Shown: positions 20,220 through 34,872 of the stretch, in pieces
Layout: each line of letters begins with the position of its first letter
Numbering within the stretch: the stretch's first letter is position 1
Assembly (NCBI RefSeq): GCF_006517815.1
Contig: NZ_CP041198.1
Span: forward strand, 3,162,001 to 3,226,000
Direction of reading: 5' to 3'
Length of the DNA stretch: 64,000 bases
From: Pseudarthrobacter sp. NIBRBAC000502770
GTDB taxonomy: Bacteria > Actinomycetota > Actinomycetes > Actinomycetales > Micrococcaceae
Translations under genes and position numbers: made by a program
Notes under the pieces: model-generated
Told to the model about the DNA's origin: nothing
The model's input: the letters and a program-made list of their open reading frames with translations, nothing else
The model's database searches: none

Positions 20220-21260
20220 TTAGAGGGTGGCGGTGTCGATTACGAAGCGGTACCTGACATCCGATGCCAGCACGCGTTCGTAGGCGTCGTTGATCTTCTC
20301 AGCCGGGATGACCTCGATCTCGGCGCCCAGGCCGTGCTCGGCGCAGAAGTTGAGCATTTCCTGGGTCTCGCGGATGCCGCCGATCATGGATCCGGCAAAG
20401 GAACGGCGTCCGCCGATCAGCGCGAAGGCATTGACGGGAAGCGGTTCCGCGGGGGCGCCGACGTTGACCAGGGCGCCATCGAGCTTCAGCAGGCCCAGGT
20501 AGGCGCTGATGTCGATCGAGGCGCTGACCGTGTTGATGATCAGGTCGAATGAGCCGGCGAGATCGGCGAAGGTGTTCTCGTCGCTGGTGGCGTAGTAGTG
20601 GTCGGCGCCGAGCTTCAGGCCGTCCTCCTGCTTCTTCAGCGACTGGGACAGCACGGTTACTTCGGCGCCCATGGCGTGGGCCTGCTTGACGGCCATGTGG
20701 CCCAGGCCGCCAAGGCCGACCACTGCGACGTTCTTGCCGGGCCCTGCGCCCCAGTGCCGCAGCGGTGAGTAGGTGGTGATGCCTGCGCACAGCAGCGGTG
20801 CGGCGACGTCCAGGTCGATGCCCTCGGGGATGGTGACAACGAAGTCTTCGGTCACCACAACGTGGGTGGAGTAACCGCCCTGGGTGATGGTGCCGTCCCG
20901 GTCAACAGCGCCGTAGGTGCCGATGTTGCCCTTGAGGCAGTACTGCTCCTCGCCCTTCTGGCAGTTGACGCACTCCTGGCAGGAGTTGACCATGCAGCCA
21001 ACGCCAACACGGTCGCCCACTGCGTGCTTGGTGACGGCGGAACCTACCTCGGTGACAATGCCGGCGATCTCGTGGCCGGGAACCAGCGGGTACTGCTGCG
21101 GGCCCCAGTCACCGCGGACAGTGTGGATGTCCGAGTGGCAGATGCCGGCGAACTTGATGTCGATCAGGACGTCGTGGGGACCCACTTCGCGGCGCTCGAT
21201 GGTGGTTGCCACCAGGTCCTCCGTGGCGGACGGGGATGCATAAGCCTTGACGGTAGTCAT
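20220..21260 (-). CDS. NAD(P)-dependent zinc alcohol dehydrogenase, YahK/AdhC-like
   Basis: A 346-residue medium-chain dehydrogenase. Catalytic zinc ligands sit in [15 protein letters not shown] and PGHEIAGIV; the four structural-zinc cysteines are in the segment [16 protein letters not shown]. The nucleotide fold is [22 protein letters not shown]. These features match the cinnamyl-alcohol/aldehyde reductase group (YahK, mycobacterial AdhC) that reduces aldehydes with NADPH. AGGAGA precedes the ATG. Its promoter region carries one of three copies of an operator-like element shared with the next dehydrogenase and an MFS gene. Confidence 0.9.
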
Positions 21261-21315
21261 GGTTCTCCTGTGATCTGTTGGGGGATATTCACGATGCTAC
21301 CGGGGTTGTTCGGAG

Positions 21316-21384
21316 CAAACCCCGGAAAAGGACGGGCCAGCGTGGCCCTGCTGAAACTGGTCTTGGGAGTCCTACCCTTGGCGA
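21316..21384 (-). promoter_or_regulatory. Operator-like element, copy C (upstream of YahK/AdhC-like gene)
   Basis: Contains CCTGCTGAAACTGG, TTGGGAGT and a CAAACC box 24 bases before the first block, in the same order and spacing as the elements at 22461-22530 and 30200-30269. The position is 56-124 bases upstream of the dehydrogenase start. Confidence 0.55.
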
Positions 21385-21404: not shown

Positions 21405-22421
21405 TCACGGGCGGAGGAGCACCTTGATGGCGCGGCGTTCGTCCATGGCCTTGTACGCCTCCGCAGCCTGTTCCAGCGGCAGTTCGAGGTCGAACACTTT
21501 GCCGGGGTTAATGTCGCCGCGGAGGATCAGGTCGATCAGGTCCGGCAGATATTGCCGCACCGGGGCGGGGCCGCCGTGCAGGTGGACGTGCGAGGAGAAC
21601 AGGTCGCGGCCGGGCAGCGAGACGTCATGGGAGACGCCCACGAAACCCACATGCCCGCCGGCCCGTGTGGCGTGGATGGCCTGCAGCATCGACTCCTGTG
21701 TTCCCACGGCTTCGAGGACGGAATGCGCGCCGAGGCCGCCGGTAAGTTCCTTGATCTTCTTCACGCCCGCGTCACCGCGCTCCACCACAATATCGGTGGC
21801 ACCAAACTCGCGCGCCAGTGCCTGCCGGTCCGTGTGGCGCGACATGGCGATGATCCGCTCGGCACCCATTTGCCTGGCTGCCAGGACCCCCAAAAGTCCG
21901 ACGGCGCCGTCGCCCACCACTGCCACTGTCTTCCCGGGGCCCACCTGGGCCGCCTTCGCGGCAAACCATCCGGTGCCCAGGACATCGGAGGCGGCCAGCA
22001 GCGACGGAACCTTGTCGGCGTCGGGCATGCCGGGCGTGGCCACCAACGTGCCATCCGCCAGCGGGACGCGGAGGTACTCCGCCTGGGAACCGCTTACGCC
22101 CTGGCGGTGGACACACCCGCTCTGGTAGCCGGAACGGCAGATCTCGCAGGTGTTGTCCGATGCGATGAAGGACCCCACGACGAACTGGCCGGGCGTAACG
22201 TTCTTCACGTCGGCTCCGACTTCCTCGACGATCCCCACGTACTCGTGGCCCATGGGAACGGGCCTGGAGATTTTGTCGGCGCCGCGGTAGGGCCAGAGAT
22301 CGGACCCGCACACACAGGCGGCCGCGAGTTTGATAACTGCGTCGGTCGGCTTCTGGATGGTGGGCTTGTCACGATCCTCGACGCGGACGTCTCCGGGCGC
22401 GTGCATGATGGTTGCGCGCAT
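21405..22421 (-). CDS. Zinc-dependent alcohol dehydrogenase family protein
   Basis: A 338-residue medium-chain dehydrogenase. Zinc ligands are in ACVCGSDLWPYRG and MGHEYVGIVEEVG; structural-zinc cysteines occur in DNTCEICRSGYQSGC. The Rossmann motif is VVGDGAVGLLGVLAARQMGAERII. The family includes threonine/sorbitol-type and broad-range dehydrogenases, so the substrate is open. ATG 22421 has GGAAGGACC upstream; the frame runs on to 22487 but without a ribosome site. It is divergent from an MmyB-like regulator across a shared element, which suggests control by that regulator. Confidence 0.88.
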   Translation of the reverse strand: MRATIMHAPGDVRVEDRDKPTIQKPTDAVIKLAAACVCGSDLWPYRGADKISRPVPMGHEYVGIVEEVGADVKNVTPGQFVVGSFIASDNTCEICRSGYQSGCVHRQGVSGSQAEYLRVPLADGTLVATPGMPDADKVPSLLAASDVLGTGWFAAKAAQVGPGKTVAVVGDGAVGLLGVLAARQMGAERIIAMSRHTDRQALAREFGATDIVVERGDAGVKKIKELTGGLGAHSVLEAVGTQESMLQAIHATRAGGHVGFVGVSHDVSLPGRDLFSSHVHLHGGPAPVRQYLPDLIDLILRGDINPGKVFDLELPLEQAAEAYKAMDERRAIKVLLRP

Positions 22422-22460: not shown

Positions 22461-22530
22461 TCCATCAAACCCGGCCCGTGCCTCCATGGCGAGGGTCCTG
22501 CTGTAACTGGTTCTGGCAGTACCTCCTTAC
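22461..22530. promoter_or_regulatory. Operator-like element, copy A (dehydrogenase/MmyB-regulator divergent region)
   Basis: Ordered blocks TCCATCAAAC, then 28 bases on GCGAGGGTCCTGCTG, AACTGGTTCTGGCAGT and ACCTCCTTA. Copy B at 30200-30269 has the same blocks at the same spacing. The centre is a rough palindrome ACTGG-N5-CAGT. It lies 40-109 bases upstream of the dehydrogenase and 31 bases before the regulator start. Confidence 0.65.
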
Positions 22531-22560
22531 GGTCCCGCCATTCGTCGTAACGTGTTCTTT

Positions 22561-23454
22561 ATGGATAACCGAGCCGAGGTCCGGCAGTTCCTCTCCTCAC
22601 GCCGTGGACGGATCACCCCGGAACAGGCAGGGATCGAACCCTATGGCGGCCGCCGGCGCGTGCCGGGGCTGCGCCGCGAGGAAGTGGCCCGGCTGGCAGG
22701 CGTCAGCGTGGACTACTACACGCGGCTGGAACGGGGAAACCTCCACGGTGTTTCGGACAGCGTCCTGGACGCCATCGCCGGTGCCCTTGAACTGGACCGC
22801 GCCGAGCATGACCACCTCTACGACCTGGCCCGGGCGGCCAACACGTCGGGCCGCAAGCGTGCCGCAGGCGCCGGAGGTTCCGCGCCGTCGAAGGTCCGGC
22901 CCGAACTGCAATACCTGCTGGACGCCATCACGGAAGCGCCTGCCTTCATTGGCAACAACCGCCTGGACATCGTTGCCGCCAACACGCTGGGTTATGCGCT
23001 GTATTCGGACATGTACCGCAACCCGTCACGGCCGGCCAACCACTCGCGGTTCATTTTCCTCGACCCCCGCGCCCACAACTTCTACACGGACTGGGACCGG
23101 GCTGCCCACACCAACGTAGCCATCCTCCGCCGGGAGGCCGGCCGCAACCCCCATGACAAGGGCATCGCCGAACTCATCGGTGAACTCTCCATGCGCAGCG
23201 ACGTGTTCCGCACGCTCTGGGCGGCCCACAACGTCCGCCGCCACTACGCGGGCACCAAGTTCTTCCAGCATCCCGTGGTGGGGCTCCTTGAGCTGAACTA
23301 CCAGGTGCTTGGGCTCGAAGAAGATCCGGGGCGCACCCTCACGGTCTATCCCGCTACGCCCGGCAGCACGTCGGCGGAAGCCCTCAAGCTCCTCGCCTCC
23401 TGGGCGGTCACCGAGAACATCGTGGAAACGGCGCAGGCAAAGGTCGGCAGCTAA
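22561..23454 (+). CDS. XRE-family regulator with MmyB-like ligand-binding domain
   Basis: A 297-residue regulator. An N-terminal helix-turn-helix reads [24 protein letters not shown], and a PAS-like MmyB domain follows (LLDAITEAPAFIGNNRLDIVAANTLGYALYSD, FIFLDPRAHNFYTDW, VRRHYAGTKFFQHPVVGLLELNYQVL). MmyB-type regulators in actinobacteria usually control an adjacent oxidoreductase; here a zinc alcohol dehydrogenase is divergent. ATG 22561 is preferred over the GTG three codons earlier. A paralogue is encoded at 34.0-34.9 kb. Confidence 0.88.
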   Translation: MDNRAEVRQFLSSRRGRITPEQAGIEPYGGRRRVPGLRREEVARLAGVSVDYYTRLERGNLHGVSDSVLDAIAGALELDRAEHDHLYDLARAANTSGRKRAAGAGGSAPSKVRPELQYLLDAITEAPAFIGNNRLDIVAANTLGYALYSDMYRNPSRPANHSRFIFLDPRAHNFYTDWDRAAHTNVAILRREAGRNPHDKGIAELIGELSMRSDVFRTLWAAHNVRRHYAGTKFFQHPVVGLLELNYQVLGLEEDPGRTLTVYPATPGSTSAEALKLLASWAVTENIVETAQAKVGS

Positions 23455-28978: not shown

Positions 28979-30196
28979 TCAGGCGGTCCGGCCCGTGACC
29001 CTGGCAGTCAGGTACGCGAGGACCGACGAAACCGCAAGGATGGCTGCGGCCGCCAGGAAAGCCCCGCCATAGCCGGCGGAGTCGAAAAGCACGCCGCCCA
29101 ACGTTGAGCCGACCGCGATCGAGGTCTGGACCACGGCCACCATCAGGCCTCCGCCGGCCTCGGCGTCGTGCGGCATGGCCTCGGCGATCCAGCTCCACCA
29201 GCCCACCGGGGCGGACGTGGACATCAGTCCCCAGAAAGCCAGGAGGACCACGACGGCGGCAAACCAGCCGCCGGACGGAACGAGGGCCGCCGCTATGACG
29301 GCCATGAGGGCCGGAATGGCTGCCAAGGTCCGGTACAGGCCCTTGCCCAGGAAGCGGCCAATGAGCATGGTGCCGGCAAAGCCCGCCACACCGATTACCA
29401 GCAGCACCAGGGATATCGTGGCCACGTCCACGCGGGTCACCGTCTCCAGGAAGGGACGGATGTAGGTGAACAGGACGAACTGCCCCATGAAGAAGGACCC
29501 GCAGGCGGCCATCCCCCAGGCGACGGTGCGGCTCTTGAATGCGGCGAAAATCCCAAAAACCGTGCCCGTGGCCCGCGTCCCGGCCTTCATTGACGGAAGG
29601 CTGATCCATTGCCAGGCCAGGGCGAGCACCGCCACCGGAACCAGGCAGAAGAACGCTCCACGCCAGCCGATGACCGAACCCAGGTAGCTGCCCAGGGGCG
29701 CAGCCAGGACGGTGGCCAGGGCGTTGCCCCCGTTGAAGATCGCCAGGGCACGCGGCACTTGGTGGGCGGGCACCAGCCGCATGGCGGTTGCCGCAGACAT
29801 GGACCAGAATCCGCCGATCACCACGCCAATGAGGGCGCGGCCAACCATGAAGAGCAGGTATCCCGGGGCCATCGCCACCAGGGCTCCGGAGACCGCCATC
29901 AAGGTGGTCAGGCCCAAAAGGAGCGGCTTGCGGTTCAGGTTGCCGGCCAGCGTGGATACGGACAGGCTGGTGAGGACGGCAAAGAGCCCGGAGATGGCAA
30001 TGCCCTGGCCCACCATTCCCTCGGAGACCTGGAGTTCGGCGGCCATGGGGGTCAGCAGGCTGACCGGCATGAACTCGGACGCGATCAGCGCGAAGACGCA
30101 CAGGGACATGGCGAAGACGCCGCCCCAGTGCGCGGGCTGCTGCGCGCGGGGTTTTTGGGGCGCGCTGGTACTGGTGAGAAGTTTTTCGGGGGCCAT
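28979..30196 (-). CDS. MFS transporter (DHA1, sugar/drug efflux type)
   Basis: A 405-residue twelve-helix transporter. The DHA1 pattern is visible in SLLTPMAAELQVSEGMVGQGIAISGLFAVLTSL and the loop with GNLNRKPLLLG between helices 2 and 3; IGGFWSMSAATAMRLVP and the drug-resistance-like motif C region LAAPLGSYLGSVIGWRGAFF follow. Close families are the arabinose/drug exporters (AraJ, PbuE-like). Its promoter carries copy B of a repeated operator-like element shared with two alcohol dehydrogenase genes, so it may export a toxic aldehyde- or alcohol-related compound, which is inference. Confidence 0.86.
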   Translation of the reverse strand: MAPEKLLTSTSAPQKPRAQQPAHWGGVFAMSLCVFALIASEFMPVSLLTPMAAELQVSEGMVGQGIAISGLFAVLTSLSVSTLAGNLNRKPLLLGLTTLMAVSGALVAMAPGYLLFMVGRALIGVVIGGFWSMSAATAMRLVPAHQVPRALAIFNGGNALATVLAAPLGSYLGSVIGWRGAFFCLVPVAVLALAWQWISLPSMKAGTRATGTVFGIFAAFKSRTVAWGMAACGSFFMGQFVLFTYIRPFLETVTRVDVATISLVLLVIGVAGFAGTMLIGRFLGKGLYRTLAAIPALMAVIAAALVPSGGWFAAVVVLLAFWGLMSTSAPVGWWSWIAEAMPHDAEAGGGLMVAVVQTSIAVGSTLGGVLFDSAGYGGAFLAAAAILAVSSVLAYLTARVTGRTA

Positions 30197-30199
30197 GGG

Positions 30200-30269
30200 T
30201 CCATCAAACCGTGCCGTCGAAGCCCTAGCGAGGGCCCTGCTGAACCGGGTTTTGCCAGTACCCCTTTAG
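30200..30269 (-). promoter_or_regulatory. Operator-like element, copy B (upstream of MFS gene)
   Basis: Shares TCCATCAAACC, GCGAGGGCCCTGCTG, TTTTGCCAGTACC and CCTTTAG with copies A and C at matching spacing. Orientation relative to the downstream gene is the same in all three. The block starts four bases upstream of the MFS start codon, so it covers the whole promoter. Confidence 0.65.
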
Positions 30270-32094: not shown

Positions 32095-33953
32095 TTACCG
32101 CTCCAGCAGGGACACGTCCCGGACAGCGCCCTTGTCCGCGGAGGTGGCCATCGCGGCGTATGCGCGCAGTGCAGCGGACACCTGCCGGTCCCGGTCCTTG
32201 GGCTTGTAGCCGCCGTTGACCAGCAGCTTCTCGCGGCGCTCGGCCAGGAGTTCATCGGATACCTCCAGCTGCAGCGAGCGCTGGCTGATGTTGATGCTGA
32301 TGATGTCGCCGTCCTCCACCAGGGCGATGGCGCCTCCGGACGCTGCCTCAGGGGAGATGTGTCCGATGGACAAGCCGGAGGTGCCCCCGGAGAAGCGGCC
32401 GTCCGTGATGAGGGCGCACTTCTTGCCCAGGCCGCGGCCCTTGAGGAACGACGTCGGGTACAGCATTTCCTGCATGCCCGGACCACCCTTGGGGCCTTCG
32501 TAGCGGATCACCACCACATCGCCTTCCTTGATGGACTTGTTCAGGATCTTTTCGACGGCCTCGTCCTGGGACTCGCACACCACGGCGGGCCCGGAGAACG
32601 TCCAGATGGACTCGTCCACGCCGGCAGTCTTCACCACCGCGCCGTCCACTGCGACGTTGCCGCGGAGCACGGCCAGGCCGCCGTCCTTGGAGTACGCGTG
32701 TTCCACCGAGCGGATGCAGCCTTCTGCGGCGTCGGTGTCCAGGGAGGTCCACTCGTTCGACTGGGAGAACGCGGTGGAGGAGCGCACGCCGCCGGGAGCG
32801 GCGTGCCACAGCGCCTTGGCTTCCTCGGTGGCCTTGCCGCCGCGGATGTCCCAGTCATCCAGCCAGCCGTCCAGGTCGGCGGAATGCACGGAGTGGACGT
32901 CCTTGTGCAGGAGGCCGCCGCGGTTCAGCTCGCCCAGCAGGGCGGGGATGCCGCCGGCGCGGTGCACATCCTCCATGTAGTAGGTCTTGTCCTTGGCCAC
33001 GTTCGGGCCACCTTGGCCAGGCAGGGCACCTGGCGGGACTTGGCATCCATCTCGGCCAGGCCGTAGTCCACGCCGGCCTCCTGGGCGGCGGCCAGCAGGT
33101 GCAGGATGGTGTTGGTGGAGCCGCCCATGGAGATGTCCAGCGCCATGGCGTTATCGAAAGCCTTGGCAGTGGCGATGGAACGGGGCAGCACGGACTCGTC
33201 GCCGCCGTCGTAATAGCGCTTGACGAGCTCGACGACGGTGGCGCCGGCTTTCTCGTACAGCGCCTTGCGGGCGGTGTGGGTGGCCAGCACGGAGCCGTTG
33301 CCCGGCAGCGACAGGCCGATGGCTTCGGTGAGGCAGTTCATGGAGTTGGCGGTGAACATGCCGGAGCAGGAACCGCAGGTGGGGCAGGCGTTCTCTTCGA
33401 TGAGGTTGATGTCGGCATCGGAGATGGACTCATCCACGGCGTCGGCGATCGCGTTCACCAGGTCCAGCGAGCGAACGGAACCGTCGGTCAGGGTCACGCG
33501 GCCGGCCTCCATGGGGCCGCCGGAGACAAAGACCACCGGGATGTTCAGGCGCAGGGCTGCCATCAGCATGCCGGGGGTGATCTTGTCGCAGTTGGAAATG
33601 CACACCAGGGCGTCGGCACAGTGGGCGTTGACCATGTACTCCACGGAGTCGGCGATCAGGTCGCGGGACGGCAGCGAGTAGAGCATGCCGCTGTGGCCCA
33701 TGGCGATGCCGTCATCCACGGCAATGGTGTTGAACTCGCGGGGCACGGCGCCGGCGGCGAGGATCGCGTCGGAGACGATCCGGCCCACCGGGGCCAGGTG
33801 GGTGTGGCCGGGGACGAACTCGGTAAAGGAGTTGGCCACGGCGATGATGGGCTTGCCGATGTCGGAGTTGGCAACGCCGGAGGCGCGCAGCAGTGCGCGG
33901 GCTCCGGCCATGTTGCGGCCGTGGGTGACTGTTTTTGAGCGAAGTGCAGGCAT
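32095..33953 (-). pseudogene. ilvD: Dihydroxy-acid dehydratase with -1 frameshift
   Basis: Isoleucine/valine/pantothenate pathway enzyme (2,3-dihydroxy-isovalerate to 2-oxo-isovalerate), with an iron-sulfur cluster. The upstream frame encodes the start [20 protein letters not shown], the cysteine motifs [12 protein letters not shown] and [18 protein letters not shown], and substrate residues to about QVPCLAKVA. Near 33005 the frame jumps; the remainder ([20 protein letters not shown]..., [19 protein letters not shown]) is in another frame. A run of three G on the plus strand (33005-33007) should be four. With that base restored the protein is 619 residues and complete. ATG 33953 has AGGATGG upstream. 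A true lesion would make the strain a branched-chain auxotroph unless a second copy exists, so an assembly error is plausible. Confidence 0.88.
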
Positions 33954-34032
33954 GCTTACCATCCTGCTGGTTCGGCGCTCCCGGCGGAAGACAGCCCTGC
34001 TACTAGTAGTGGGAGTACCAGAGTAATAGTAT

Positions 34033-34872
34033 TTGGGAGTGAACAATCCCGGACGGCGCAAGGAACTGGGCCTCTTCCTGCGGGCCAGGCGCGACCAGGC
34101 GCTGCGGGCTGACTACGGCCTGCCGCCCGTCGGCCGCACCCGTGAGCGGGGGCTCCGCCGCGAGGAAGTGGCGTTCCTTTCCGGCGTCAGCGTCACCTGG
34201 TACACGTGGCTGGAGCAAGGGCGGGACATTAGCCCTTCCCGGCAGGTTTTGGAGGCCATCAGCCGTGCGCTGCATTTGTCCAGCACCGGCCTGGGCTACG
34301 TACTGTCGCTGGGCGGCTATGCCACCGCGGCGCCCGCCGGGCCGGCAGCCGATACCGCGCCGCCCCACATCCAGCGCCTCCTGGACGCCCTCGATCCCAA
34401 TCCATCCTTCGCGTTGTTTCCGGACTGGGGCGTGGCCGGGTGGAACACGGCTTACGCGGCGTTGTATCCCAATATCGCCAAGGTGCCGGCGGCAGACCGG
34501 AATCTGTTGTGGCTGGTGTTCACCGACCCGTATGTCAGGAACCTCCTGCCGGACTGGGAGACCACCAGCAAGCGGTTCCTGGCCGAGTTCCGGGCCGAAA
34601 CCGGGCAGCGGCTGGGCGATCCGGACATCCAGTACCAGGTGGAACGGCTCAAGGAAGCGAGCCCGGAGTTCCGGCAGGGCTGGGACCTTTACGACATCCT
34701 GGGTTTCGAGTCCCGCGAGCGTCTGTTCCACCACCCCGCCGTGGGTGTGCTCCAGCTGGAACACCACCAGGTGTCGCCATCGGACCGGCCGGACCTGCAC
34801 ATCGTGGTTTATACGCCGGCCCCGGGCAGCGGCGCCGCGGCGCAGATGAAGTCGCTCCTGGCAGCAGCCTAA
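34033..34872 (+). CDS. XRE-family regulator with MmyB-like ligand-binding domain
   Basis: A 279-residue paralogue of the 22.6-kb regulator. The helix-turn-helix is [30 protein letters not shown]; the MmyB domain includes [40 protein letters not shown], and [20 protein letters not shown] 34033 or GTG 34039 could be the start; both lack a strong ribosome site. It is divergent from ilvD and convergent with the M20 gene, overlapping its stop by a few bases. The target is unknown; no oxidoreductase is adjacent, unlike the other copy. Confidence 0.82.

Follow-up and report, generated by a model that had tools for sequence, protein, structure and literature searches.

The question raised by this locus was whether three similar stretches of promoter DNA, placed upstream of two dehydrogenase genes and an MFS transporter gene, are binding sites of a single regulator encoded beside one of them. 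The locus was analysed as one stretch of 64,000 nucleotides, referred to below as the window. In the reading favored here (probability roughly 0.84), the PF17765 regulator encoded at 22561-23454 uses the shared element as its operator and would thereby control its own gene, ADH2, the YahK-like dehydrogenase gene and the NepI-like MFS gene. Features are collected in Table 1, where MLTR denotes the regulator gene and copy A the element between it and ADH2.

Table 1. Predicted genes, operator parts and promoter hexamers in the window
Feature	Position	Strand	Remark
YahK-like Zn-dependent alcohol/aldehyde dehydrogenase	20220..21260	-	predicted target
YahK TAGCAT	21294..21299	-	at +60; probable real -10
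YahK copy TTTGCT	21314..21319	-	at +40
YahK copy core dyad	21348..21369	-	CTCCCAAGACCAGTTTCAGCAG
ADH2, Zn-dependent medium-chain dehydrogenase	21405..22421	-	predicted target
ADH2 -10-like TTTGAT	22464..22469	-	starts +40 from dyad centre
Copy A outer arm, ADH2 side	22489..22495	none	GCGAGGG
Copy A 22-bp core dyad	22498..22519	-	CTGCCAGAACCAGTTACAGCAG on - strand; centre between 22508 and 22509
Copy A perfect 15-bp odd palindrome	22509..22523	+	GGTTCTGGCAGTACC; MLTR-proximal unit
Copy A outer arm, MLTR side	22521..22530	none	ACCTCCTTAC
MLTR -10-like TAACGT	22548..22553	+	starts +40 on the other side, 7 nt before ATG; leaderless-like
MmyB-like regulator (HTH_31 + MLTR_LBD, 297 aa)	22561..23454	+	predicted binder
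MFS transporter, NepI-like	28979..30196	-	predicted target
MFS copy TTTGAT	30203..30208	-	at +40, 6 nt before ATG
MFS copy core dyad	30237..30258	-	CTGGCAAAACCCGGTTCAGCAG

All three copies were found where the initial annotation had placed them, and each has the same orientation to its own minus-strand gene. A 23-bp core pattern, derived from the copies themselves, returned three matches in the window when up to three mismatches were allowed, every one of them at zero mismatches, compared with a mean of 0.07 matches over 100 dinucleotide shuffles of the window, none of which contained three or more. When a 75-mer around copy A was slid along both window strands, the only stretches with at least 38 identities were the MFS copy, with 52 of 75, and the YahK copy, with 38 of 75. 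Across the three copies, 31 of 75 columns were identical, and the offset of GGTTTG was constant in each.

The genome-wide motif scan that had been proposed gave three exact matches to a 24-bp pattern, the window copies, and no further exact copies in 4.48 Mb. With up to three mismatches this pattern matched eight times versus four for a reversed control, and the best of the five non-copy matches (locus L006) lay inside a gene of the metallo-beta-lactamase superfamily. The 22-bp dyad alone (≤ 3 mismatches) gave five genome matches, of which three were the window copies, versus three in the control. Enrichment upstream of other genes, which the initial annotation had expected of a true operator, is not applicable here because the predicted circuit is local and comprises three promoter regions. 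The three-copy regulon described there is supported as to its promoter regions and was drawn too small as to its genes: copy A also serves the regulator gene, and therefore four transcripts are concerned.

All three copies are built as composite inverted repeats, with a core of CTGC-N3-AACC joined at the centre to GGTT-N3-GCAG and outer GAGG/CCTC arms. Read on the target-gene strand, the 22-bp core stands between AAGGRGG-type and CCCTCGCTA-type arms. The core dyad of copy A is common to ADH2 (minus strand) and MLTR (plus strand), and it occupies a fixed place upstream of MLTR orthologues. A single operator of ~70 bp, as first described, was rejected because the conserved parts separate into dyad, arms and a -10-like hexamer, with freer spacers; the unit is instead a dyad of ~36-43 bp plus this hexamer. 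The "CAAACC box", previously listed as an element of its own, is the reverse complement of GGTTTG and forms part of the -10-like TTTGAT.

Core complementarity in the window copies is imperfect (6-7 of 11 positions). Over distinct aligned sites, kept at ≥ 16/22 with an AACC, GACC or ACTAG centre (the TACC-type clade being thereby removed), mean complementarity was 0.48 for YahK (29 sites), 0.68 for ADH2 (16 sites) and 0.66 for MFS (20 sites), against a background of 0.25-0.26 over all even centres. A competing odd centre eight bases away (at -8), which is the 15-bp palindrome GGTTCTGGCAGTACC, gave 0.49, 0.64 and 0.57, respectively, and was slightly above the even centre for YahK. With the odd centre scoring nearly as well as the even one, a dimer may be centred on either. 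Palindromes of the GGTTCTGGCAGTACC class also precede MLTR genes in loci beyond the genus. In locus L227, inspection by eye shows the core half-sites exchanged between unchanged flanks. Genome G031 has the same exchange for a TACC-type core; both are what recognition by a symmetric dimer would predict.

Even on the side away from the target, the outer arm is conserved at MFS sites, at a mean of 1.54 bits per position. No divergent gene is present on that side in the window, where the gene that precedes MFS (DUF817) lies on the same strand, which argues against this arm being only the -35 of a divergent promoter; an MLTR gene does lie opposite some of the YahK copies. A longer, near-symmetric version of the operator (AAGGGAG...CTCCCTT) was observed in Arthrobacter sp. 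OV608 (L141, 5642-5683), where the genes on its two sides encode a LacI-family regulator and an aldo/keto reductase, and an MLTR match was absent within this 8-kb locus.

Copy A presents one dyad midway between two divergent promoters, with a -10-like hexamer at +40 on each side, and the geometry of the MFS promoter is the same. TTTGAT was present at +40 in 13/16 ADH2 sites, and TTTGAT or TTTCAT in 19/20 MFS sites. On the regulator side, 48 MLTR rows (≥ 78% identity, 45 distinct upstream sequences) were compared, and 45 of them could be anchored by a proximal half at the fixed place; a TA-initial hexamer was found at +40 in all 45 anchored rows, and it was TAACGT in 39. YahK sites carried TTTGAT at +40 in only 10/29 and TAGCA at +60/+61 in 27/29, and TAGCAT is the probable real -10 of this gene in the window.

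The distance from dyad centre to ATG was 51-52 bp in 31 of the 33 MLTR rows that had a match, and 46-55 bp in 16 of 18 MFS cases. Given these fixed short distances, the MLTR and MFS mRNAs both look leaderless. With a 17-bp spacer, the mean match to TTGACA at -35 (out of 6) was 3.06 for ADH2, 3.0 for MFS, 1.03 for YahK and 0.44 for the MLTR side. The outer arm extends to this -35 position, where the consensus is poor on the MLTR side and reaches ~3/6 on the ADH2 and MFS side; an arm over a weak -35 fits an activator and also fits a repressor.

So rigid a distance to the -10-like hexamer would also be expected if the element were a promoter class, served by an unusual sigma factor or forming an extended core promoter, with copies alike because the promoters are alike. 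The rearranged loci L066, L067 and L069, which retain only the promoter-side half, point the same way. Against this, the 4.48 Mb contain just three exact copies, presence of the element tracks one regulator gene, the promoter-distal half is conserved too at MFS sites, and the half-sites of L227 (by eye) are swapped between flanks that did not change. We regard a promoter class as unlikely, although it is the most durable of the alternatives, and continue with the element as an operator of the regulator.

The gene next to copy A does encode an MmyB-like regulator, as had been claimed: its product scored 39.9 bits for HTH_31 (cut-off 27) and 195.9 bits for MLTR_LBD (cut-off 26.3), and it carries the N-terminal XRE-type HTH and C-terminal MLTR ligand-binding domain of PF17765. 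A structure model built from a 22-sequence alignment (mean pLDDT 84.3, pTM 0.61) had 3pxp/MltR as its best PDB match (Foldseek E 3.6e-12, TM 0.50, rmsd 8.4 over the whole chain). The same entry was reached by phmmer (E 7.4e-6), and the fold is that of MltR with a PAS-like domain. Residue 51 lies in model helix 50-57, which is taken as the recognition helix. The regulator (start 22561, plus strand) is divergent from an MDR gene, ADH2 (start 22421, minus strand), and so has the SDR/MDR neighborhood of its family.

Among the predicted targets, the YahK-like product contains ADH_N and ADH_zinc_N domains, and its best solved relative is 1uuf (YahK; E 2.1e-108). The MFS product scored 250.4 bits against the NCBIfam equivalog for the NepI purine ribonucleoside efflux pump; the cut-off of 584 was not reached, and it is therefore called NepI-like only.

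A second MLTR regulator, MLTR2 (34033-34869, plus strand; PF17765, 159 bits), is ~31% identical to the first. It is divergent from an ilvD-like gene (dihydroxy-acid dehydratase, named by eye; 32095-34061, minus strand) that consists of two overlapping frames, 32095-33000 and 32925-34061, and is a frame break or sequencing error; by eye, the region upstream of MLTR2 is without a dyad-type site. A 54% MLTR paralogue elsewhere in the same genome (L088, C2:2881069-2883923) has a shorter palindrome-like sequence, GGGAGGGCTTGCCAGTCCCTCC, upstream of itself, and GGGAGGGCTTGCCAGTCCCTCC was also present in L105, L107 and L108.

In order to compare the distribution of site and regulator, 101 genomes of the genus were listed by hand from a core scan (≤ 1 mismatch) and an orthologue search (≥ 80% identity). 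The core was present in 24 genomes, the MLTR orthologue in 37 and both in 22 (Fisher p = 1.8e-10, a value that ignores relatedness, the species not being independent). MFS orthologues were present in 18 of the 37 orthologue genomes, and all 18 had the site, at 16-22 of 22 positions (17/18 at ≥ 19). An operator common to the set of the MmyB-like regulator, as the initial annotation had suggested, is thus supported by comparison, with an orthologue in 22 of the 24 core genomes and a site at 18/18 MFS genes. An exact dyad scan of named genomes found 71 stretches, 20 in Arthrobacter/Pseudarthrobacter and 51 elsewhere; an MLTR, YahK, ADH2 or MFS homologue was in the locus in 19 of the former 20 versus 0 of the latter 51.

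At ≤ 1 mismatch the core occurred at 39 places in the 24 genomes, those beyond the fetched loci being assigned by coordinates. Places not assigned to the regulator or the three targets were in G020 (within a gene of the uracil-DNA-glycosylase superfamily), G065 (L011), G007:C25 and G075:1643525 (in front of an MLTR paralogue of 51% identity); G020 and G065 are the two core genomes that have no MLTR orthologue. A wider regulon was rejected, few of the places lying away from the regulator or its three targets. Among the 15 orthologue genomes lacking a core at ≤ 1 mismatch, inspection by eye showed a diverged site in front of MLTR in 12 (that of G082 lacks one base); G013, G015 and G077 (L069, L067 and L066, respectively) had only the proximal half upstream of the orthologue. 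Two other loci, L042 and L049 (G056 and G007), lack ADH2 and have YahK and MLTR as immediate divergent neighbors; both loci keep a YahK-type site, and MLTR retains the proximal half.

Target homologues were also collected from genomes without the orthologue. The 22 YahK relatives (≥ 85% identity, window excluded, from 28 of 30 YahK loci) comprised seven without a site (13-15 of 22 positions), 14 with a TACC-type site and one with the old site. TACC-type sites matched at 17-19 of 22 positions; eight shared their locus with an MLTR of 59-62% identity, and for six the fetched locus contained no MLTR. Among the site-less loci, a match resembling a half-site is seen in L188 (15 of 22), and L190 has a 48% MLTR in the locus. 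The old site, in G040, stands beside an internally shortened MLTR remnant with an intact-looking promoter (L181, 2709-2860), which is read as recent regulator loss.

MFS homologues (71-75%) were found in 7 of the 64 non-orthologue genomes. Three were divergent from a 70-71% MLTR, two lay tail to tail with a 53-55% MLTR, one had a 52% MLTR downstream in the same orientation, and no MLTR lay in the locus of the seventh. Upstream of all seven, composite sites whose arms resemble GGGAG/CTCCC were seen and looked related by eye, at scores of only 14-16 of 22 against the consensus of the window operator, like controls. ADH2 homologues (55-68% identity), which served as a negative control, were drawn from the 35 of 64 non-orthologue genomes with a match; no site was found in their 30 loci, where the best dyad score was 12-15 of 22.

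That the operator is real and read by another regulator, for example the 54% MLTR paralogue or MLTR2 at 34033, is considered slightly less probable again than a promoter class. The genomes do contain several MLTR paralogues, and G040 keeps a YahK site without an intact orthologue. The 54% paralogue, however, is itself preceded by a shorter palindrome of another kind (L088), MLTR2 has no such site upstream (by eye), and the site, or at least its proximal half, precedes the orthologue itself in 45/48 rows. Three similar ~70-bp stretches inside 9 kb could suggest recent duplicates or a mobile repeat carrying promoter DNA, an explanation with very little left to it given that conservation falls in the dyad, arms and -10 with variable spacers, that the copies are retained at their own genes across species, and that additional genome copies are absent. 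The mobile repeat was rejected on the scans with pattern and dyad, which gave no further copies. The operator is accordingly discussed below as that of the adjoining regulator.

Family-wide signals were sought at the level of the order, where 55/149 genomes matched at E ≤ 1e-80; the best of these matches supplied 26 loci from outside the genus. The 15-bp palindrome GGTNCTGSCAGNACC was present at ≥ 11 of 13 positions in 13/26 of these loci versus 0.7% of shuffles, an enrichment that is partly circular because the consensus was chosen after viewing the 26 sequences. Its best match ended 35-39 bp before the ATG in 21/26 loci, compared with 37 bp in the window. The even 22-bp core was found in 0/26 at ≥ 17 of 19 positions.

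Residue 51 of the regulator was then set against operator base +4 in 78 of 92 regulators (14 without CAG at the fixed place were dropped; a few near-identical genes are included). Asp was paired with T in 51/59 (another base in 8), and Glu with T in 0/19 (another base in 19). The pattern required four changes on the tree over all rows and three over the 78, and a phylogenetic pair test yielded two pairs on starred branches, one concordant and one not differing (p = 1). Given so few independent changes and a pair test that was not significant, the covariation is a lead, not a result. We offer only tentatively, and at somewhat under even odds, a general MLTR operator code in Actinobacteria, in which the site consists of inverted GAGG-N2-CTG units with GGTNCTGSCAGNACC at a near-fixed distance from a leaderless-like regulator start and residue 51 (Asp/Glu) sets base +4. 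Sequence would then suffice to predict operators and targets for many MmyB-like regulators that are still uncharacterised. If this wider code is true, the regulons of many family members would be readable from genomes.

The sequence comparisons show the operator, its geometry, its conservation and its co-occurrence with the regulator; binding, the direction of control and the nature of the ligand are inferred as follows. A dimer of the regulator (perhaps two) would bind the composite inverted repeat at the three promoter regions and so control four transcripts, its own and those of ADH2, YahK and the MFS transporter. By analogy with its family, its PAS-like domain may sense a small hydrophobic or aldehyde-type compound, and turnover of aldehydes or alcohols, together with export, would then be switched on. 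Ligand-dependent activation is given a slight preference over repression relieved by ligand because MmyB, the family precedent, is an activator. An unlinked MFS transporter and aldehyde-type dehydrogenases would thereby be joined in one predicted detoxification-like circuit.

The closest known systems belong to the MmyB-like/MltR family (PF17765). In the portions of Xu et al. 2012 (PMC3406030) that were available, the MmyB-like genes of S. coelicolor and other actinomycetes are in most cases transcribed divergently from genes of the SDR/MDR or antibiotic-related kind, and MmyB is an activator said to recognise pseudo-palindromic B-boxes. The window set has the same domain pair and fold and a regulator divergent from a medium-chain dehydrogenase. 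The same portions give no operator beyond the MmyB B-boxes, nor do those of PMC12565409, PMC7532634 and PMC10717218, and no published operator of the MmyB-like/MLTR kind was found in the openly available literature searched; the window set adds an operator, a promoter geometry and unlinked target copies. MmyB of methylenomycin control is likewise XRE-type and of the same family as the window regulator, with different target genes, and its B-boxes are likened to the window operator by description (pseudo-palindromic), not by sequence.

Further afield, the available portions of PMC7532634 describe MsrR of Corynebacterium glutamicum as an XRE regulator that likewise controls itself and a divergent MFS gene; it differs in its size (240 aa) and in acting negatively, through thiol-based sensing of oxidation. 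The HTH fold is shared by C.BclI and other small XRE regulators (2b5a, E 0.045, probability 1.00), and the 77-residue 2b5a chain is without the PAS-like sensor domain of the window regulator. MmyB-like regulators have been described, in the literature portions available, mainly as neighbors of dehydrogenase or antibiotic genes; the predicted operator makes DNA recognition and targets testable, and it hints at the DNA recognised by this poorly understood family. The system appears to add a well-supported case to the MmyB-like family, with the predicted operator and its exact promoter geometry as the new part.
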